From Proteiniphilum saccharofermentans (GTDB lineage: Bacteria; Bacteroidota; Bacteroidia; Bacteroidales; Dysgonomonadaceae): 64,000 nt of DNA. Below are positions 54,858 through 63,642 of the stretch, piece by piece. The stretch spans positions 248,001-312,000 of the forward strand of contig NZ_LT605205.1 in assembly GCF_900095135.1 (NCBI RefSeq), read 5' to 3'. The position numbers and the translations under genes are program-made. The notes below the pieces were generated by a model. That model saw only the letters and a list, made by a program, of their open reading frames with translations, was not told the DNA's origin and ran no database searches. The number at the start of each line of letters is the position of its first letter. Position 1 is the first letter of the stretch.

Positions 54858-55186
54858 TTACAACATCACTTTTTGTAAGGCTTTTTTTATAAAACTATTC
54901 AGGGTTTCTCCTTTTTTCTTGCTTCAAGGGCAATGTTTTTATGTAATTCTGATCCTATACGGATATTCAGTGTCCCGCTGAACGGTTTCTGCGGTTTCAC
55001 TCTCTCCTGTTCGCAATCGAACAGATAATCATCTATATATTCCTTGAAGTCTTTTTCCAGTTCATCAAAAGTGTTGCCTTCGTAAGTAAACAAGTGAGTT
55101 ATACCCAATACACGTCCGTGAAAACATTTATCCGGTACGCTAAACTCTACCGTACCGGTGTATCCTTTATATTCCAAGTAGATTAT
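54858..55186 (-). pseudogene. Decayed HicB-family antitoxin gene
   Basis: The HicB core is clear (EYKGYTGTVEFSVPDKCFHGRVLG, then FSGTLNIRIGSELH). Two lesions are visible. The position where relatives have the start codon reads ATA (55186-55184), leaving only a TTG at 55177. An A6 run at 54912-54917 is one A short: in the present frame the protein stops at 54899 after EARKKEKP, whereas adding one A restores GETLNSFIKKALQKVML to a stop at 54858, the typical HicB C-terminus. No HicA toxin gene lies next to it. Confidence 0.75.
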
Positions 55187-55367: not shown

Positions 55368-55398
55368 TTGCATTATAATCATAAAACACTTTTCTTTG
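55368..55398 (+). promoter_or_regulatory. trpL: Probable promoter of the trp operon
   Basis: TTG (55368-55370), 20-nt spacer, TTTCTTTG (55391-55398), one mismatch to TAnnTTTG. The transcript would start near 55405, leaving only about 14 nt before the leader peptide start. Confidence 0.6.
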
Positions 55399-55418
55399 CA
55401 AACAAAATTCATAGGAAA

Positions 55419-55478
55419 ATGAACAATTCATTACTAAACGGATATTGGTGGCGCTACTTACAACTCTCAAAGTCGTAA
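55419..55478 (+). CDS. trpL: trp operon leader peptide with tandem Trp codons
   Basis: A 19-codon frame, MNNSLLNGYWWRYLQLSKS, with two adjacent Trp codons (TGG at 55446-55451) and two Tyr codons, starting at ATG 55419 after AGGAAA and ending at TAA 55476-55478. It lies between the promoter and a strong terminator, 173 nt before trpB. In the attenuation model, low charged tRNA-Trp stalls the ribosome at the tandem codons and favours an alternative RNA fold. Too short to be called by ordinary gene finders. Confidence 0.85.
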   Translation: MNNSLLNGYWWRYLQLSKS

Positions 55479-55540
55479 GGAAGAGCATCATGCGTTTATA
55501 GTGAATCAGAAATATAAAAAGCCTGTCGCAATCCTGCGAC
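55472..55540 (+). promoter_or_regulatory. Possible antiterminator helix of the trp leader
   Basis: GTCGTAAGG (55472-55480, overlapping the leader stop codon) can pair with CCTGCGAC (55533-55540), the 3' side of the terminator, with one bulge and one G-U pair. A ribosome stalled on the Trp codons leaves this segment free; one that reaches the stop codon covers it. This is inference from base pairing. Confidence 0.5.
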
Positions 55541-55550
55541 AGGCTTTTTT
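55516..55550 (+). terminator. trp attenuator terminator
   Basis: GCCTGTCGCA (55521-55530), loop ATCC, TGCGACAGGC (55535-55544), extended by A5/T5 and followed by T6. A perfect 10-bp G/C-rich stem located 38 nt after the leader peptide stop and before trpB. Confidence 0.93.
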
Positions 55551-55560
55551 CATAATAGAG

Positions 55561-55616
55561 CCGGTTTTCATAGTGAAGCGAATGGAGTTAGGTGCTTCCA
55601 TTCTGAGAGCAACCGG
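55561..55616 (+). promoter_or_regulatory. Nested hairpin between attenuator and trpB
   Basis: Outer arms CCGGTT/AACCGG (55561-55566, 55611-55616) enclose GAATGGA/TCCATTC (55580-55586, 55597-55603); an alternative GAAGC/GCTTC (55575-55579, 55594-55598) competes with the inner stem. Function unknown; it would protect or modulate the trpB leader after read-through. Confidence 0.45.
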
Positions 55617-55651
55617 ACGGGTAACTTGAAAATTATTAAACAGTTTGATAT

Positions 55652-56827
55652 ATGCAAAATTATGCAATAGACGAAAAGGGGTATTACGGTGAGTTCGGTG
55701 GAGCGTATATCCCCGAGATCCTGCACAAATGTGTGACCGATTTGAAAGAGTCGTACCTCCGCATTATGGAAAGCGAACACTTCCGGCAGGATTATGCACA
55801 GTTGCTCCGCGATTATGTGGGACGTCCCTCTCCGCTATACCATTCGAAACAACTTTCCGGGCGGTATGGCTGCAAAATATATCTGAAGCGGGAAGATCTC
55901 AACCATACAGGAGCGCACAAGATCAACAATACCATAGGGCAGATACTGATTGCCCGTGAGATGGGCAAAACACGTATTATCGCCGAGACCGGCGCCGGAC
56001 AACATGGAGTGGCTACCGCCACTGTCTGCGCACTAATGCAGATGCCCTGCACTGTTTACATGGGAAAGACCGATGTAGGACGTCAACAAGTAAATGTAAA
56101 GAAGATGGAGATGCTGGGGGCGACAGTCGTACCGGTAACTTCGGGCAATATGACGCTTAAAGATGCGACCAATGAGGCGATACGCGACTGGTGTACCCAT
56201 CCGGGTGATACACATTACATCATCGGTTCTACCATAGGTCCGCATCCCTATCCCGATATGGTAGCCCGGTTACAGTCAGTCATCAGTCGCGAAATAAAAG
56301 AACAACTTGCCCGGGAAGAGGGGCGCGATTATCCCGATTATCTCTTTGCCTGTGTAGGAGGAGGAAGCAACGCGGCAGGGACTATCTATCATTATCTCAA
56401 TGATGAGAGGGTACGTATTGTGCTGACGGAAGCAGGGGGAAGGGGAGTTAACAGCGGCGAATCGGCAGCGACCATTCATCTGGGAAGTACCGGTATACTT
56501 CATGGTTGCAGGACACTACTGATGCAGACCGAAGACGGACAGATTACTGAACCTTATTCAATCTCTGCCGGACTGGATTATCCCGGTGTCGGGCCTATAC
56601 ATGCCCATCTTGCATCGACAGGGCGTGCACAGGTGTTGGCCATCAACGACGATGAAGCACTCCAGGCTGCTTTTGATCTTACCCGCAACGAAGGGATCAT
56701 CCCTGCGTTGGAATCAGCCCATGCCCTGGCGGCACTTGAAAAGGTTACATTCTCTTCCGGCGATATTGTGGTGTTGACACTTTCGGGAAGGGGAGAAAAG
56801 GATCTGGAGACTTATTTTAAGTACTGA
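55652..56827 (+). CDS. trpB: Tryptophan synthase beta chain
   Basis: 391 residues. GYYGEFGGAYIPEIL at the N-terminus, the PLP lysine Lys90 in HTGAHKINN, AETGAGQHGVATATV, and CVGGGSNAAG (phosphate-binding) are diagnostic of TrpB1. Joins indole and serine to tryptophan; works with TrpA, encoded at the other end of the operon. As first gene it directly follows the leader/attenuator. Order trpB-E-G-D-C-F-A is the usual one in Bacteroidales. Confidence 0.98.
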   Translation: MQNYAIDEKGYYGEFGGAYIPEILHKCVTDLKESYLRIMESEHFRQDYAQLLRDYVGRPSPLYHSKQLSGRYGCKIYLKREDLNHTGAHKINNTIGQILIAREMGKTRIIAETGAGQHGVATATVCALMQMPCTVYMGKTDVGRQQVNVKKMEMLGATVVPVTSGNMTLKDATNEAIRDWCTHPGDTHYIIGSTIGPHPYPDMVARLQSVISREIKEQLAREEGRDYPDYLFACVGGGSNAAGTIYHYLNDERVRIVLTEAGGRGVNSGESAATIHLGSTGILHGCRTLLMQTEDGQITEPYSISAGLDYPGVGPIHAHLASTGRAQVLAINDDEALQAAFDLTRNEGIIPALESAHALAALEKVTFSSGDIVVLTLSGRGEKDLETYFKY

Positions 56828-56953
56828 AGTTGGAAGTTAGAAGTGTTTTTAATTACCAATTACTAATTATTAATTACCAATGGATCGGTATGAGGCATAT
56901 CCTAAATCAAAAGTCTTGTGTCTTGATTCTTGGCTCTTATGTCTAAAAAATTT
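56826..56953. repeat. Three kinds of word repeat between trpB and trpE
   Basis: GAAGTTGGAAGTTAGAAG words (56826-56844), AATTACC/AATTACT words (56852-56880) and a partial TCTTG element (56903-56953, containing TCTTGTGTCTTGATTCTTGG) stand in a row. The last ends at the trpE start codon. Confidence 0.85.
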
Positions 56954-58360
56954 ATGAAATTAAAATTCAAAACTAATAGTAAGAAGATAATGGGTGACCT
57001 GCATACGCCGGTCAGTATTTACCTCAAAGTAAGAGATGCTTATCCCCAGTCGGCGCTTCTGGAGAGTTCCGATTTTCACGCCAATGAGAACAGCGTATCC
57101 TATATCGCATTGAAGCCAATCGCACGGGTAGAGGTGAACAGAGGGATATGCACATTCCTGTCTCCAGACGATAAAGAGGAGCAAAAGCCGCTGTCAGACG
57201 ATTTTACCATCTCTGATGCGCTAAGCAATTTTATTGATCGCTTTGAGGTGGCGGGCGACAACAAGGAGCAGTGCGGACTGTTCGGTTATACTACATTCAA
57301 TTGCGTGAAATATACCGAGAATATCCCTGTCCGTGAAAGTAAAGAGGCTAGGAATGATGCCCCTGATATGCTTTATATCCTCTATAAGTACCTGTTGGTA
57401 TTCAACCATTTTACCGATGAAATTACCCTGATAGAATTATTGGAAGAGGGGGAAATAAGCAACCTCTTCAAGGTGGAGTCGCTGATCAATCAGCGCAATT
57501 TTGCTACCTACAACTTCTTTACAGAAGGAGCGGAGCGGAGTACTATTACCGACGAGGAATACAAGCAGTATGTACGCAGCGGAGTAGAGCATTGCCTTCG
57601 CGGTGATATTTTCCAGATAGTACTTTCAAGGAGATTCATACAACCTTTTTCGGGTGACGACTTCAAGGTATACCGGGCATTGCGTTCCATCAATCCTTCG
57701 CCCTATCTTTTCTATTTTGATTTCGGCGGATTCCGTATCTTCGGATCATCGCCCGAGACACATTGCAAGATACACGGATCACGTATCAGTATCGATCCGA
57801 TTGCGGGAACTACAAAGCGGACCGGCAATTATCAGGAAGATATGAAATCGGTGGATTTTCTGTTGAATGACCCGAAAGAAAATGCCGAACATGTGATGCT
57901 CGTCGATCTGGCGCGTAACGATCTGAGTAGGAATGCCTACGATGTGCAGGTCGATTTTTTCAAGGAACCACAATTCTATTCGCATGTAATACACTTAGTA
58001 TCACGCGTGAGTGGTCAGCTTAACGAGGATGCTGATCCTATCAAAGCCTTTTTTGATACTTTTCCGGCCGGAACACTCTCGGGAGCGCCCAAGATACGTG
58101 CCATGCAGCTTATCTCCGAAATTGAATCACACAACCGTGGCGCTTATGGTGGATGTATCGGTTTCGTCGGACTGAATGGTGATCTGAACCAGGCTATCAC
58201 TATCCGTACTTTTGTAAGCAGAAACAACGAGTTATGGTATCAGGCCGGTGCGGGTATTGTTTCACAAAGTAGTGATGAATATGAGTTACGCGAAGTGAAT
58301 AGTAAGCTGGGAGCACTGAAAAAAGCCATCGATATGGCAGTCACATTATATAATGCCTAA
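56954..58360 (+). CDS. trpE: Anthranilate synthase component I
   Basis: 468 residues from the ATG at 56954 (MKLKFKTNSKKIMGDLHTP), chosen because earlier starts lie in the repeat and relatives begin the same way. The LLESS motif (35-39) of the tryptophan feedback site is intact. The chorismate-binding core shows FQIVLSRRF, LYFDFGGFRIFGSSPE-like sequence, PIAGTTKRTG, LVDLARNDLSRN, FPAGTLSGAPK and GAYGGCIGF. Makes anthranilate from chorismate with ammonia supplied by TrpG, encoded 11 nt downstream. Confidence 0.97.
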   Translation: MKLKFKTNSKKIMGDLHTPVSIYLKVRDAYPQSALLESSDFHANENSVSYIALKPIARVEVNRGICTFLSPDDKEEQKPLSDDFTISDALSNFIDRFEVAGDNKEQCGLFGYTTFNCVKYTENIPVRESKEARNDAPDMLYILYKYLLVFNHFTDEITLIELLEEGEISNLFKVESLINQRNFATYNFFTEGAERSTITDEEYKQYVRSGVEHCLRGDIFQIVLSRRFIQPFSGDDFKVYRALRSINPSPYLFYFDFGGFRIFGSSPETHCKIHGSRISIDPIAGTTKRTGNYQEDMKSVDFLLNDPKENAEHVMLVDLARNDLSRNAYDVQVDFFKEPQFYSHVIHLVSRVSGQLNEDADPIKAFFDTFPAGTLSGAPKIRAMQLISEIESHNRGAYGGCIGFVGLNGDLNQAITIRTFVSRNNELWYQAGAGIVSQSSDEYELREVNSKLGALKKAIDMAVTLYNA

Positions 58361-58371
58361 ACTTTTTTGCA

Positions 58372-58941
58372 ATGAGTAAGATACTTATTATAGATAACTA
58401 CGATTCGTTTACCTACAACCTGCTACATGCAGTAAAGTCGTTAGGATATAACGAGGTGGATGTAGTTCGTAATGACAAGATCGATCTTTCATCGGTAGTG
58501 CAGTATGACAAGATTATCCTTTCCCCCGGCCCAGGTATCCCTGAAGAGGCAGGTTTGTTACTGCCATTGATTGAACAATATGCCGAAACGAAGAGCATAT
58601 TAGGTGTATGTCTTGGCCATCAGGCTATCGGAGTAGTTTTCGGTGCTACATTGGAAAATATTCCATTTGTCTTTCATGGTGTACAGACAAGGGCAAAGAT
58701 CACCGGAAGTGATTATCTCTTTCACGGCTTGCCGGAGGAGATTCTTGTGGGACGCTATCACTCATGGATCGTATCGGGAGAGAATTTTCCTTCAGAATTA
58801 GAGATCACGGCATTGGATGAGGCGGGCAGTATTATGGCGATGAAGCATAAGCAGCTTGATCTGCATGGTGTGCAGTTCCATCCCGAATCGATACTCACCC
58901 CGGAAGGGATCCATATTATCAGGAATTTTATTGGAAGCTGA
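58372..58941 (+). CDS. trpG: Anthranilate synthase component II (glutamine amidotransferase)
   Basis: 189 residues. Class I amidotransferase triad: nucleophile Cys80 in GVCLGHQAIG, and His/Glu in VQFHPESILTP near the C-terminus; ILSPGPGIPEEAG is the oxyanion region. Starts 11 nt after trpE. May also serve PabA function, as in other bacteria with a single such gene (not testable here). Confidence 0.97.
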   Translation: MSKILIIDNYDSFTYNLLHAVKSLGYNEVDVVRNDKIDLSSVVQYDKIILSPGPGIPEEAGLLLPLIEQYAETKSILGVCLGHQAIGVVFGATLENIPFVFHGVQTRAKITGSDYLFHGLPEEILVGRYHSWIVSGENFPSELEITALDEAGSIMAMKHKQLDLHGVQFHPESILTPEGIHIIRNFIGS

Positions 58942-58952
58942 GATGTTTTTTT

Positions 58953-59043
58953 AAATTACAAATTACAAATTACAAATTACAAATTACAAATTACAAATTA
59001 CAAATTACAAATTACAAATTACAAATTACAAATTACAAATTAC
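58953..59043. repeat. Perfect tandem heptamer (AAATTAC)13
   Basis: Thirteen uninterrupted copies of AAATTAC, 91 bp, inside the trp operon between trpG and trpD. As 7 is not a multiple of 3, every forward frame reads the same heptapeptide KLQITNY without a stop. Confidence 0.97.
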
Positions 59044-59065
59044 AAATAAATCGATATTAGACCGT

Positions 59066-59117
59066 TGAATTGTTGAATTCTCAAATCCCAAATCCGATAT
59101 CCCAAATCTCAAACAGT
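59066..59117. repeat. TTGAATTG and CAAATCCC word repeat before trpD
   Basis: Words such as CAAATCCCAAATC and CCCAAATCTCAAAC end 15 nt before the trpD ATG. An in-frame TTG at 59070 would translate them, but that region is repeat and not part of TrpD. Confidence 0.75.
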
Positions 59118-59132
59118 CTTTATTCTAAAGAA

Positions 59133-60128
59133 ATGAAAGAAATATTATATAAACTATTCGATTACCACTACCTCTCGCGCGAAGAGGCCAAAGAGGTGTT
59201 GTTCTCAATTGTAAAAGGTGATGTACCCGACACGCAGATCGCTTCGCTTATCACCTCTTTCCTGATGCGGAATATCTCGGTGGATGAAATACTGGGTTTC
59301 CGTGATGCACTGCTCGATATGCGGGTAGGAGTAGATTTGTCTGATTACGGGGCACTCGACATCGTCGGAACGGGAGGGGATGGGAAGAACACTTTCAATA
59401 TCTCTACAGCCGCCTGTTTTGTGGTTGCCGGTGCAGGGTACAACGTAGTGAAACATGGTAATTACGGTGCGACTTCTATCAGTGGCGCCAGTAATGTGAT
59501 CGAACAACAAGGTGTGAAATTCACTACTGATAGTGAAAAGTTGCGTGAAAGCCTCGATAATTGCCATATAGCTTATCTGCATGCTCCGCTGTTCAGTCCC
59601 GCTCTAAAAGCGGTCGCCCCTGTAAGGAAAAGCCTGGGAGTACGTACCTTCTTCAATGTATTGGGCCCATTGGTAAATCCCGTGCAACCCGAATTCCAGA
59701 TGCTGGGGGTCTATAACCTGGGTATGTCACGGTTATACGGCTATATCTATCAGGAGGAAAAGAAAAAATTCTGTATCGTACATAGTATGGACGGTTATGA
59801 TGAGATATCTCTTACAAGTCAGTTTAAGGTGATTACCAATAAAGGTGAACAACTTTATATTCCCGAGGAACTCGGTTATCGGCGGGTTGCCCAGGAAGAA
59901 TTATATGGTGGTAATACGCTTGAGGAGGCTTCGCAGATATTCCGGAATGTGTTGCATGCCACTGCTACGGATGCACAAATGAATGCGGTGCTGATTAACG
60001 CCGCCTTTGGTATCCAGACAATCGAGCAAGAGAAACCGATTGACGAATGCCTTGGAATCGCCCGGGATTCGTTGTACGGGAAAAAGGCGTTGAAAGCGTT
60101 GGAGAAGTTTATTGAGATCAATGGATGA
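59133..60128 (+). CDS. trpD: Anthranilate phosphoribosyltransferase
   Basis: 331 residues from ATG 59133, the normal family length; the upstream in-frame extension is repeat DNA. Motifs: DIVGTGGDGKNTFNIST (PRPP binding), KHGNYGATSISGASNVIEQQG, LGVRTFFNVLGPLVNP and the VHSMDGYDEISLT segment. Transfers phosphoribose from PRPP to anthranilate. Not fused to trpG, unlike in enterobacteria. Confidence 0.97.
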   Translation: MKEILYKLFDYHYLSREEAKEVLFSIVKGDVPDTQIASLITSFLMRNISVDEILGFRDALLDMRVGVDLSDYGALDIVGTGGDGKNTFNISTAACFVVAGAGYNVVKHGNYGATSISGASNVIEQQGVKFTTDSEKLRESLDNCHIAYLHAPLFSPALKAVAPVRKSLGVRTFFNVLGPLVNPVQPEFQMLGVYNLGMSRLYGYIYQEEKKKFCIVHSMDGYDEISLTSQFKVITNKGEQLYIPEELGYRRVAQEELYGGNTLEEASQIFRNVLHATATDAQMNAVLINAAFGIQTIEQEKPIDECLGIARDSLYGKKALKALEKFIEING

Positions 60129-60180
60129 CCAGGAAGATTGGGAAGCTGGGAGACCGGGGAGATTAGAGAAGGTTAGGATA
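60126..60180. repeat. Purine-rich GGGAAGCTGGGAGA word repeat between trpD and trpC
   Basis: AGATTGGGAAGCTGGGAGAC-type words begin right at the trpD stop codon. They are reverse-complement relatives of the 50466-50545 block. Confidence 0.7.
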
Positions 60181-60224
60181 AAAAAGAGTTGGACATTTTA
60201 ATTGGTACATTGGCATATTAAATT

Positions 60225-61022
60225 ATGAAAGATATATTAAGTGAAATTATTGCTCACAAAAAAGAAGAAGTTGCGGAGCAAAAAGAAAGACTGCCCCTTT
60301 CTGAATTGGAAAAAGAGTTGGCGAGGAGTAGTATCCCATTTTACTCGTTAAAAGCAGCTTTGGAAAATTCAAAGTCAGGGATTATTGCTGAGTTCAAACG
60401 ACGTTCACCAAGTAAAGGATGGCTGTTTCAAACAGCTGATGTGAACGAAGTGGCAAAGGCATATGCATCGGCAGGCGCTTCAGCGCTGTCGGTACTGACG
60501 GATGAGAAATATTTTGGCGGAACAATGGACGACCTGCGACAAGCCACCGGGGGTGTGGAGATACCGGTGATGCGGAAAGAGTTTATTGTGGATGAATACC
60601 AGTTGTTCGAGGCTAAACTTTCCGGAGCGAGTGCAGTACTGCTGATTGCTGCGGCTATTACACGGGAAGAATGTAGACGATTTACGGAACTGGCGAATCA
60701 ACTGCAACTGGAAGTGCTTTTGGAACTGCATGATGAGGGGGAAGTCGACCATATCGGGCCGCTCAACAGACTTGTCGGTATCAACAACCGTAACCTGGGA
60801 AGTTTTGTGACCGATTTGCAGAAGTCGTTCAGGATGGCTGATCTTTTGCCCAGGGAGGCAGTATGGATTTCGGAAAGCGGTATATCGGATACGCGGATTG
60901 TGAGGGAATTACGGGAGACAGGTTATCGGGGATTCCTGATCGGGGAGTATTTTATGAAAAGCGGTAATCCCGGGCAAAGTCTGAAGGAGTTTATCGAACA
61001 AGTTATTCGGCAGGACCAATGA
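60225..61022 (+). CDS. trpC: Indole-3-glycerol phosphate synthase
   Basis: 265 residues, monofunctional (not fused to TrpF). KKEEVAEQKERLPLSELE at the start, catalytic IIAEFKRRSPSKG (Glu/Lys), VLTDEKYFGG, VMRKEFIVDEYQ, LLELHDEGE, GINNRNLGSF and SESGISD are present. Ring-closes CdRP to indole-3-glycerol phosphate. Confidence 0.97.
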   Translation: MKDILSEIIAHKKEEVAEQKERLPLSELEKELARSSIPFYSLKAALENSKSGIIAEFKRRSPSKGWLFQTADVNEVAKAYASAGASALSVLTDEKYFGGTMDDLRQATGGVEIPVMRKEFIVDEYQLFEAKLSGASAVLLIAAAITREECRRFTELANQLQLEVLLELHDEGEVDHIGPLNRLVGINNRNLGSFVTDLQKSFRMADLLPREAVWISESGISDTRIVRELRETGYRGFLIGEYFMKSGNPGQSLKEFIEQVIRQDQ

Positions 61023-61075
61023 GGCGAATATGACAAACAACGTTCAACGGAGTGAAACGTAGTTAAATATGCTAA

Positions 61076-61146
61076 TCCCGATAAATCGGGAAGTAATGAC
61101 TAATGTGATGATTTGGCTAGTTAGTAATTGGTAATTAGTAATTGAA
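61076..61146. repeat. Hairpin and inverted AATTACC-type words before trpF
   Basis: TCCCGA-TAAA-TCGGGA (61076-61091) is followed by GTGATGATTTGGCTAGTTAG and TAATTGGTAATTAGTAATTG words, reverse complements of the words at 50550-50597 and 22366-22396. Confidence 0.7.
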
Positions 61147-61153
61147 TAACAAT

Positions 61154-61765
61154 ATGATAATCAAAGTATGCGGCATGCGAGAGGAAGCGAACGTGCGTGA
61201 GGTGGAACAGTTGGGTGCGGATTGGATGGGATTTATTTTCTATCCGAAATCGCCGCGCTATGTGGGGAAGACGTTGGCCTACCTGCCGGAGAGCGTAAAA
61301 AAGGTCGGTATCTTTGTGAATGAAGATACTGATCGGCTCCTTACGTTGGCTGAAAAAAACAGATTGGATATCCTTCAATTACATGGGGACGAGTCTCCCG
61401 AGCTTTGCAAAGCGCTCCAAGAAAAAGATTTTCTCGTTATCAAGGCATTCGGTATCACCACGGAGAAACCTTTCCCTTCTGAATTGACGGAACGGTATGA
61501 AGACTGTTGTGACTATTTCCTTTTTGATACGCATACGGATCTTTATGGCGGTTCAGGAAGAAAATTTGGATGGGAGATACTTTCGGATTACCAGGGAGGT
61601 ACGCCTTTTCTGTTAAGCGGAGGTATTTCGCCGGAAGATGTGGAGGAAGTAAAACGATTCTCACATCCGAAATGTGTTGGTATTGATCTGAACAGCGGAT
61701 TTGAAACCTCGCCTGCCGTCAAAAATACACAGTTATTACAGAAATTTATAAGTGCATTTCGTTAG
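61154..61765 (+). CDS. trpF: Phosphoribosylanthranilate isomerase
   Basis: 203 residues from ATG 61154, since the protein should begin just before IIKVCGMRE (catalytic Cys in KVCGM). DWMGFIFYPKSPRYV, VGIFVNED, LQLHGDESPE, LLSGGISPEDVEE and GIDLNSGFETSP complete the (beta/alpha)8 barrel, with catalytic Asp in LFDTHT. Isomerises PRA to CdRP. Confidence 0.96.
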   Translation: MIIKVCGMREEANVREVEQLGADWMGFIFYPKSPRYVGKTLAYLPESVKKVGIFVNEDTDRLLTLAEKNRLDILQLHGDESPELCKALQEKDFLVIKAFGITTEKPFPSELTERYEDCCDYFLFDTHTDLYGGSGRKFGWEILSDYQGGTPFLLSGGISPEDVEEVKRFSHPKCVGIDLNSGFETSPAVKNTQLLQKFISAFR

Positions 61766-61905
61766 TTGATAGGATAATAATTCACTGAGTAATAAAGCCG
61801 GAAACATACTTCTTTTAAGTTTGGTGGGCTGTAAAGGGATAAAGCGAAGTCAATGCTTTTTAGGAGTTGCAAAGAAAAAGATAAAATCAAATAGAAAATC
61901 AGATA

Positions 61906-62676
61906 ATGAACAGAATAGATCGATTGTTTGAAGAAAAAAAGAGCGGTATCCTGTCGGTTTACTTTACGGCCGGATATCCTCAATTCGATGATACCGTAAA
62001 GGTGATCAAAGCGCTGGAAAAACAAGGTGTGGATTTGATAGAGATCGGTGTGCCGTTCAGTGATCCCATGGCCGACGGGCCGGTGATCCAGGCATCCGGA
62101 GCCCGGGCATTGGAAAACGGCATGAGTGTGAAACGTCTTTTCGGACAGCTGGCCGGGATTCGTGAAAAGATGTCGATCCCGCTGGTACTGATGGGATATC
62201 TGAACCCGATCATCCAGTTCGGATTCGATAATTATTGTGCGGAAGCGGTGAAGTGCGGCATTGACGGACTCATCATTCCCGATCTGCCGTTTGCCGAATA
62301 TATGGATGCCTATAAGCCGATAGCTGAAAAATACGGGTTGCATATTATTATGCTGATCACTCCCGAAACATCGGAAGAACGGATCAGGTTGATAGATGAG
62401 CATACTTCCGGCTTTATCTATATGGTCTCGACTGCTTCGGTGACAGGCGCCAAAAATAGTTTCGGGGATGAGAGCCTGGCCTATTTCCGTCGTGTGAACG
62501 CGATGCAACTCAAAAATCCCCGCCTGATAGGATTTGGTATCTCCAACAAGGATACATTCAATGCCGCCTGTCGTGAAGCCTCGGGAGCGATCATCGGAAG
62601 CAAATTCATTTCACTGTTGGGCAGTGACAAAACAATCGACGAAGCCGTAGCAAGATTAGTGGAAACAATCCGTTAA
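61906..62676 (+). CDS. trpA: Tryptophan synthase alpha chain
   Basis: 256 residues. LSVYFTAGYPQFDD, catalytic Glu in LIEIGVPFSDPMADGPVIQ, MGYLNPIIQFG, LIIPDLPFAEY (catalytic Asp) and GFGISNKDT are present. Cleaves indole-3-glycerol phosphate to indole and G3P. Last trp gene; 140 nt separate it from trpF, in which I see no clear signal. Confidence 0.98.
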   Translation: MNRIDRLFEEKKSGILSVYFTAGYPQFDDTVKVIKALEKQGVDLIEIGVPFSDPMADGPVIQASGARALENGMSVKRLFGQLAGIREKMSIPLVLMGYLNPIIQFGFDNYCAEAVKCGIDGLIIPDLPFAEYMDAYKPIAEKYGLHIIMLITPETSEERIRLIDEHTSGFIYMVSTASVTGAKNSFGDESLAYFRRVNAMQLKNPRLIGFGISNKDTFNAACREASGAIIGSKFISLLGSDKTIDEAVARLVETIR

Positions 62677-62754: not shown

Positions 62755-63642
62755 ATGCTTTTCCAATCGCACATTGGTGAAATGGCCTCATTGTTGACGG
62801 CTGTATGCTGGACGCTGAGTGCTATCTTTTTCGAAAAGGCGGGCCGACGGGTAGGTTCTTTGTCGGTGAACATCCTTCGTCTTTTCCTTGGGATACTCTT
62901 CCTTGGGATTACTACTCTTTTTACCCGCGGCATGTTTTTTCCAAAGGATGCTACGCTCTACAATTGGGTATGGCTCGGCATTTCCGGCATTATCGGTTTT
63001 TTCCTGGGTGACCTCTTCCTCTTCAAATCCTATACTATTATCGGTTCCCGTACATCCCAGCTTGTGATGAGCCTTGCCCCCATGATCACGGCCGTGGTCG
63101 GATGGTTCTTTCTGGATGAGATCCTTTCGGCGAAAAGCATTCTGGGTATCGTAGTAAGTGTCTCGGGGATCATGATCGCTGTAGCAGGGAAAGGGTTGAA
63201 ACTGAATGTACCCTTGCGCGGTTTTCTTTATGCACTGGGAGGGGCAGCAGGGCAAGCCTTAGGATTGATCCTCAGTAAAAAAGGGATGGGCGATTACGAC
63301 GCCGTGGCTGCTACCCAAATCCGTGCGATATTCGGTTTTTTCTCTTTTGTCCTTTTGGTTACTTTCCTGAATCGGTGGAGAAGGGTCTTCCGTACGGTGA
63401 ATGATGGGACATCCATGAGGTCAATCACTGTGGGAACTATTTTCGGCCCTTTTATCGGTGTGGCTTTGTCGCTCTACGCCGTACAGCATACCGAAACGGG
63501 GATTGCCTCCACGTTGATGGCACTAGTACCTATTTTCATCATTATACCCACTGCCTTTATGTTTAAAGAGAAGATCACCGCCCGTCAGGTAATCGGCGCA
63601 GTGATCAGTATCGCGGGAGCAAGTATCTTTTTTTATAAGTAA
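62755..63642 (+). CDS. EamA/DMT-family membrane transporter
   Basis: 295 residues with about ten hydrophobic segments in two EamA repeats (about 8-138 and 155-293); GWFFLDEILSAKSILGIVVSVSGI and FMFKEKITARQVIGAVISIAGA are the paired signatures. A drug/metabolite exporter of the inner membrane. Next to the trp operon but with its own promoter; amino-acid export is possible, not shown. An alternative start exists at 62782. Confidence 0.92.
   Translation: MLFQSHIGEMASLLTAVCWTLSAIFFEKAGRRVGSLSVNILRLFLGILFLGITTLFTRGMFFPKDATLYNWVWLGISGIIGFFLGDLFLFKSYTIIGSRTSQLVMSLAPMITAVVGWFFLDEILSAKSILGIVVSVSGIMIAVAGKGLKLNVPLRGFLYALGGAAGQALGLILSKKGMGDYDAVAATQIRAIFGFFSFVLLVTFLNRWRRVFRTVNDGTSMRSITVGTIFGPFIGVALSLYAVQHTETGIASTLMALVPIFIIIPTAFMFKEKITARQVIGAVISIAGASIFFYK

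Follow-up and report, generated by a model that had tools for sequence, protein, structure and literature searches.

Introduction

The trpL leader of Escherichia coli combines a leader ORF containing adjacent Trp codons with a protector, an antiterminator and a terminator, and its segment 2 pairs with the 5' arm of the terminator. Bacteroidota are major gut bacteria. Their closest described element is the Rfam family RF01692, Bacteroid-trp, labelled 'Bacteroidete tryptophan peptide leader RNA', a leader hairpin with Trp codons. It is a computational family of Weinberg et al. (2010), whose main text names the motif once, in Table 1 (PMC2864571). In Flavobacterium psychrophilum, the same Bacteroid-Trp RNA lies upstream of the trp operon and is named as a trp leader in a passage of a 2019 discussion (PMC6414381). 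The transcriptome map of Bacteroides thetaiotaomicron refers to short ORFs that call leader peptides to mind, but words starting with 'trp' or 'tryptophan' are absent from its main text (PMC7366714). Ribosome-mediated leader-peptide attenuators outside the Proteobacteria were also proposed computationally for a different phylum, the Actinobacteria (PMC1262725). An open-literature search returned, among the matches listed, no bench study of a Bacteroidota trp leader or attenuator.

The trp attenuator of the Bacteroidota is thus already catalogued, as RF01692, and the element family is not new. An earlier note on the present DNA knew of no characterised example in this phylum; its suggestion of novelty is superseded by the in silico family of 2010 and the mention of 2019. 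The apparent novelty lies in the half of the terminator hairpin that the switch takes.

Results

The trp leader of Proteiniphilum saccharofermentans

The window, which is the whole stretch of 64,000 nucleotides analysed here, belongs to a genome consisting of one 4.41 Mb contig. The features of the leader region are as follows.

55368–55398, + strand: Bacteroidota-type promoter by sequence reading (TTG at 55368–55370, a 20-nt spacer, TTTCTTTG at 55391–55398)
55419–55478, + strand: leader ORF of 19 codons, MNNSLLNGYWWRYLQLSKS, with ATG at 55419 and stop codon TAA at 55476–55478 (sequence reading)
55446–55451, + strand: tandem Trp codons TGGTGG, the putative sensor (sequence reading)
55457–55461, + strand: segment 1, CUUAC, 3' of the Trp codons, predicted to pair with GUAAG (55475–55479) in the protector hairpin P1 (MFE and centroid fold)
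55472–55481, + strand: segment 2, GUCGUAAGGA, across the stop codon, with segment 1 or the terminator loop plus 3' arm as predicted partner
55485–55500, + strand: leader stretch 3' of segment 2 that, in the fold with a stalled ribosome, pairs with interruptions to 55513–55529, which takes in the greater part of the terminator 5' arm
55516–55530, + strand: terminator 5' arm (terminator scan and fold)
55531–55534, + strand: terminator loop AUCC, of which UCC (55532–55534) pairs with GGA (55479–55481) in the predicted antiterminator
55535–55549, + strand: terminator 3' arm, of which UGCGAC (55535–55540) pairs with GUCGUA (55472–55477) in the predicted antiterminator; the T run extends to 55550
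55652–62676, + strand: trpB, trpE, trpG, trpD, trpC, trpF and trpA, the presumed target operon (NCBIfam)

The 19-codon frame with adjacent Trp codons and the perfect 10-bp terminator with a T run ahead of trpB, both described in the earlier note, were confirmed. The terminator (55516–55549) reads GCCTGTCGCA/ATCC/TGCGACAGGC, and an AAAAA/TTTTT extension brings its 10 bp to 15 bp; with the T run, an intrinsic terminator is predicted at 55516–55550, between the leader ORF and the first gene. The sequence GTCGTAAGG is found at 55472–55480. The start of trpB is 102 nt past the T run, and the RNA in between (55551–55651) has an ordinary fold (z = −0.3).

The promoter-like boxes noted earlier are present but are better read as Bacteroidota type. 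The consensus TAnnTTTG, which we take to be that of Bacteroidota promoters, differs from TTTCTTTG by one base. In the comparative set described below, 160 of 191 leaders have this consensus no more than 45 nt ahead of the leader ATG, versus 3.8% of shuffled upstream stretches. The transcription start is expected at about position 55405. A sigma-70 promoter for the leader was considered and rejected, as a scan gave 18 sites versus 17.5 expected from shuffles, and the Bacteroidota-type box fits better.

Five of the operon genes (trpB, trpG, trpD, trpC and trpA) match their NCBIfam models above the curated cut-off; trpE and trpF are the best NCBIfam matches, each below it. As the seven genes form one cluster on one strand, control of all of them by the leader is plausible. 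Between the trp genes (56828–61905), the terminator scan revealed just short stems, located inside genes. By ORF ends, five of the six gaps in this region measure 96–140 nt, and given this length the cluster may contain internal promoters.

Membership in the Bacteroid-trp family

Positions 55399–55527 of the + strand match RF01692 over the full model (1–131) with 58.8 bits, compared with a gathering threshold of 49. The match lies upstream of the tryptophan genes, and the model ends inside the terminator 5' arm. The RNA from 55405 to 55554 folds with −49 kcal/mol versus −25.3 ± 3.3 kcal/mol for 200 dinucleotide shuffles (z = −7.1). Rfam family RF04312 (trpB) scored 23.6 bits, below its gathering threshold of 59. 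A second RF01692 match in the same genome was rejected as a further copy: it is the terminator palindrome on the opposite strand.

Of 150 related genomes, 52 gave an RF01692 match at E ≤ 0.001, 37 of them above the cut-off. Of 395 genomes from the phylum, 47 did so at E ≤ 0.01, 38 of them above the cut-off; the own genome is counted in both cases. The element is also present on a scaffold of Proteiniphilum acetatigenes.

The comparative set consists of 193 parsed leaders: 50 from the relatives, 46 from the phylum and 97 from a DNA pattern scan. Two of the 52 matches in the relatives, located at contig ends, were left out, and the own-genome match among the 47 of the phylum was not entered again. 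The pattern scan yielded at least 118 stretches, which were selected for AGTCGTRAG and CTRTCG and are hence biased, and it overlaps the genomes of the relatives. The parser failed on 17 of 214 sequences, all of them pattern matches and some from Bacteroides or Alistipes, and true members may have been lost in this way; four more (L088, L163, L180 and L186) were excluded as misparsed.

An in-frame TGGTGG leader ORF is present in all 96 fetched loci with an Rfam match, a count to be read with the fact that the parser demands TGGTGG and that the Rfam consensus contains it. Three adjacent Trp codons occur in 136 of 195 rows and two in 59 (two misparsed rows are still included in these numbers). 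Five leaders (L158, L175, L179, L091 and L204) have a Phe codon in place of the first Trp codon (FFWW), which leaves two Trp codons. In an alignment of 43 representative rows TGGTGG is invariant, and the terminator has 11 consensus pairs, eight of which vary in both partners. The comparison of relatives thus revealed conservation of the tandem Trp codons, the terminator and, as described below, the alternative helix.

A conserved segment over the leader stop codon

Across the 193 leaders, a conserved GUCGURAG lies over the leader stop codon (55472–55479 in the window) and is complementary to the terminator loop and the top of the 3' arm. The corresponding motif NTCGTRRN is present in 184 of the 193, including 87 of the 96 leaders that were not pattern-selected. 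Its start precedes the stop codon by 4 nt in 163 leaders of these 184 and lies elsewhere in 21. In L005, L037 and L043 the frame is shifted at the end of the leader, and L045 has an earlier stop; in all four the RNA letters are kept. Because the stop codon sits elsewhere in 21 leaders, it appears to be the RNA rather than the peptide that is conserved in segment 2.

In the predicted folds of free leaders, segment 2 has at least four of its eight nucleotides paired with the region that separates it from the Trp codons; this applies to 183 of 184 leaders, compared with 45% when the upstream part is shuffled. The RF01692 consensus pairs the strands of P1 partly in another register, and RNAalifold on the 43-row alignment recovered the terminator alone, with P1 missing. 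The proposed P1 rests on the single-sequence fold, the family count and, in part, the Rfam model.

Predicted pairing of segment 2 with the terminator loop and 3' arm

The predicted antiterminator of the window joins GUCGUA and GGA to UCCUGCGAC by 9 bp, leaving A55478 bulged, and six of the nine pairs lie in the 3' arm. Other leaders use different letters for the same pairing: GUCGUGAG with CUCACGAC, GUCGUAAG with CUUACGAC or CUUGCGGC, GUCGUGA with UCACGAC, UCGUGAA with UUCACGA, and GUCGUGAGUU with AACUCACGAC.

Among the 43 representative rows, 95.4% of 326 cells are standard pairs, versus 92.9 ± 0.5% after reshuffling and 16–53% when the strands are slid, kinship being ignored. Column pair 76–155 is A-U in 20 rows, G-C in 17, G-U in five and another combination in one. 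The number of further pair types on these rows, five, was no larger than in reshuffles. When terminators were swapped between 97 distinct combinations, the mean duplex weakened from −11.5 (native) to −10.0 ± 0.18 kcal/mol, and the native strength was reached in none of 5000 permutations (kinship again ignored).

The loop offers the cleanest test of the pairing because it is unpaired in the terminator. For 42 distinct combinations of segment and loop, with kinship ignored, the fraction of random loops pairing as well as the native one was 5.7% on average (largest 0.30), and that of permuted loops 15.5%. As so few loops pair as well, the loops match segment 2 beyond what the hairpin needs.

Not all data point in this direction. 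On a TrpB tree with 105 rows, the A/G key position agrees with its partner in 87 rows and disagrees in 18, with four changes and three independent pairs (median p = 1); this underpowered test lends weight to neither side. In 16 distinct combinations, leaders ending in UGA show G-U alone at the key position, which speaks against the pairing. Compared with shuffled 45-nt leaders, the duplex with loop and 3' arm taken alone is significant in 71 of the 193.

A conserved antiterminator core of the E. coli trpL type, with segment 2 on the 5' arm, was obtained neither for the window nor for the 193 leaders taken together. The earlier note had suggested that the competing helix takes the 3' arm rather than the 5' arm. 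In silico, this is supported for the conserved core, whose partner however is the loop together with the upper end of the 3' arm. The stalled-state fold of the window also predicts a secondary contact, in which the leader just downstream of segment 2 ties up some of the 5' arm.

Order of folds and ribosome position

Competition between the folds was modelled by nested thermodynamic folding with a ribosome that masks 12 nt beyond the first base of the A site; a ribosome reach of up to 12 nt past a stop codon is given in a passage of PMC4833913. In the free leader of the window, P1 forms and the terminator leads once the RNA up to 55538 is exposed. A ribosome at the stop codon leaves this point, 55538, unchanged. 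When the ribosome sits on one or the other Trp codon, the computed probability of the antiterminator is at least 0.99 at the examined ends from 55536 to 55541, and the terminator is ahead from 55543. Mutually exclusive protector, antiterminator and terminator folds were thus obtained in silico and, together with the leader ORF and the terminator, they support the architecture of a trp attenuator put forward in the earlier note.

The same order was found over the family. Averaged over the 193 leaders, the terminator needs 9.0 exposed nucleotides of its 3' arm in the stalled state, 3.8 with the ribosome at the stop codon and 4.5 in the free state, compared with 5.1 for shuffled leaders. The stalled ribosome delays the terminator by at least 3 nt in 180 of 193 leaders, versus 23% of shuffles. 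The trp leader of E. coli, which served as positive control, went from 3 nt (stop codon) to 6 nt (stalled), a delay of 3, with shuffles at 3.7.

The delay, present in 174 of 184 leaders, was kept in 38 after an in silico change of segment 2, in 109 after a change of the downstream leader and in 81 after a change of the loop. In the model, most of the delay is carried by segment 2 and some by the downstream leader. Since changes in the downstream leader lower the delay, pairing with the 3' arm would not be the whole antiterminator. Once the full RNA is exposed, the terminator, at about −23.5 kcal/mol, is favoured over the antiterminator duplex, at −12.2 kcal/mol, in every ribosome state, so that any switch must be kinetic.

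A delay below 3 nt was obtained for 13 of the 193 leaders: L027, L206 and L208, together with ten whose titles name Bacteroides, including two from B. fragilis. Because these leaders are concentrated in Bacteroides, our confidence in the attenuator explanation is slightly lowered. The ten Bacteroides leaders are L083, L085, L087, L093, L103, L106, L109, L119, L147 and L154; nine of them have a 3-nt terminator loop.

A predicted second layout in families f62 and f64

For two further families, 30 of 41 matches (f62) and all 23 matches (f64) were fetched, and 45 leaders were kept. Five of the 53 were unparsed: L226 by the chosen cut, L261 and L273 because they lack an ATG, and L276 and L278, which look unrelated. 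Three more (L242, L244 and L246) were removed because of a wrong terminator. Some genomes are repeated from the phylum set, for example those of L232 and L209.

In f62, pairing with the 5' arm is significant in 18 of 26 leaders and pairing with the 3' arm in three, an example of the former being GGCAACC with GGUUGCC. The f62 leaders L226–L255, in which these 18 of the 26 tested have predicted 5'-arm pairing as in E. coli, form a natural comparison set. In f64, each mode is significant in seven of 19 leaders. The delay is kept in both families, in 21 of 26 f62 leaders versus 27% of shuffles and in 17 of 19 f64 leaders versus 25% of shuffles. Six f64 leaders, picked by eye, have a segment 2 of the form GUUGRUUC, which matches GAAYCGAC in the loop and 3' arm; the letters are GUUGGUUC with GAACCGAC in four, GUUGAUUC with GAAUCGAC in one, and GUUGGUUC with GAAUCGAC, including one G-U pair, in one.

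Judged from these models, the topology of the antiterminator seems to have changed within one attenuator family. We consider a more specific idea evenly balanced between right and wrong: that segment 2 lands on the loop, which leaves the RNA polymerase earlier than the 3' arm does, and keeps the hairpin from nucleating without exceeding its stability, and that the antiterminator has moved between the loop plus 3' arm (Bacteroidales, f65) and the 5' arm (f62, with both modes in f64) while the logic of the leader stayed constant.

Discussion

The element belongs to Bacteroid-trp and probably controls the trp operon by ribosome-mediated transcription attenuation, its antiterminator beginning at the terminator loop. 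The computation bears out the parts and their conservation, the complementarity and a predicted order of folds; that the cell translates the leader, that ribosomes stall on it and that transcription terminates or reads through is an inference. When no ribosome is present, segment 1 (55457–55461) and the Trp-codon strand would hold segment 2 (55472–55481) in P1, and the terminator (55516–55549) would form. With ample tryptophan, the ribosome would reach the stop codon inside segment 2 and cover this segment, again allowing the terminator. When charged Trp-tRNA is short, the ribosome would stall on UGG UGG, disrupt P1 and set segment 2 free. The freed segment could then pair with the emerging terminator loop and extend along the upper 3' arm (9 bp with one bulge), while the leader further down would tie up part of the 5' arm. 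The hairpin would presumably be unable to zip from its top while the polymerase passes the U tract, and a terminator delay of several nucleotides would let the RNA polymerase leave this tract and transcribe trpBEGDCFA.

A classical attenuator of the E. coli type is a rather unlikely alternative, though it deserves the most weight among those considered. Here the functional antiterminator would join the leader to the 5' arm, and the match to the 3' arm would be a by-product, owed to a likeness between segment 2 and the 5' arm. The stalled fold of the window, in which 55485–55500 contacts 55513–55529 (mostly 5' arm), is in keeping with this, as are the lowered family delay when this part of the leader is changed and the predominance of the 5'-arm mode in f62 (18 versus 3 of 26). 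The energies tell a different story: in the window, the 5'-arm duplex has −7.6 kcal/mol versus −12.2 kcal/mol for the duplex with loop and 3' arm, and over the family the 5'-arm mode is significant in 14 of 193 leaders versus 71. A by-product would also leave the match of the loop letters, which are unpaired in the hairpin, to be accounted for.

The centring of the pairing on the loop, and f65 leaders such as L061, where four of seven pairs are in the loop and three base pairs of the hairpin are displaced, would suit a pseudoknot of segment 2 with the loop. Such a pseudoknot would leave the lower terminator stem in place and influence termination or pausing by a route other than competition with the hairpin. 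We regard this as improbable, since six of the nine pairs in the window lie in the 3' arm and require an open upper hairpin, and nested folding already separates the states. Intrinsic terminators 3' of short ORFs can end sRNAs, and from this general point of view the leader might be constitutive, Rho-linked or an sRNA source instead of a Trp-regulated attenuator. The in-frame tandem Trp codons in all 96 Rfam-match loci (required by the parser and part of the Rfam consensus) and the conserved mutually exclusive folds make this very improbable.

The favoured reading, an attenuator with a loop-first antiterminator, shares with E. coli trpL the leader ORF with Trp-Trp, the protector, the antiterminator and the terminator, and a delay by the stalled ribosome is predicted in both. 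It differs in that the antiterminator core of the window pairs with the loop and the top of the 3' arm and that segment 2 contains the stop codon. If true, the textbook antiterminator on the 5' arm would be one of at least two workable layouts, which could be compared inside one RNA family; changes in the loop alone would be expected to break antitermination and leave termination unharmed. In comparison with RF01692, whose model is without terminator and antiterminator, the analysis of the window adds a description of both, and the model could be extended with the terminator and segment 2.

Minor observations concern the rest of the genome and the neighbourhood of the operon. A search of the own genome for runs of four His codons (CAY) gave 42 scattered matches versus 14 with the pattern reversed. 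A HicB-family gene lies on the opposite strand, upstream of the trp leader (54899–55177, − strand; PF05534, E = 1e-11). An EamA-family transporter gene (62755–63642, + strand) follows trpA in the same orientation after 78 nt and may share a transcript with the trp operon.
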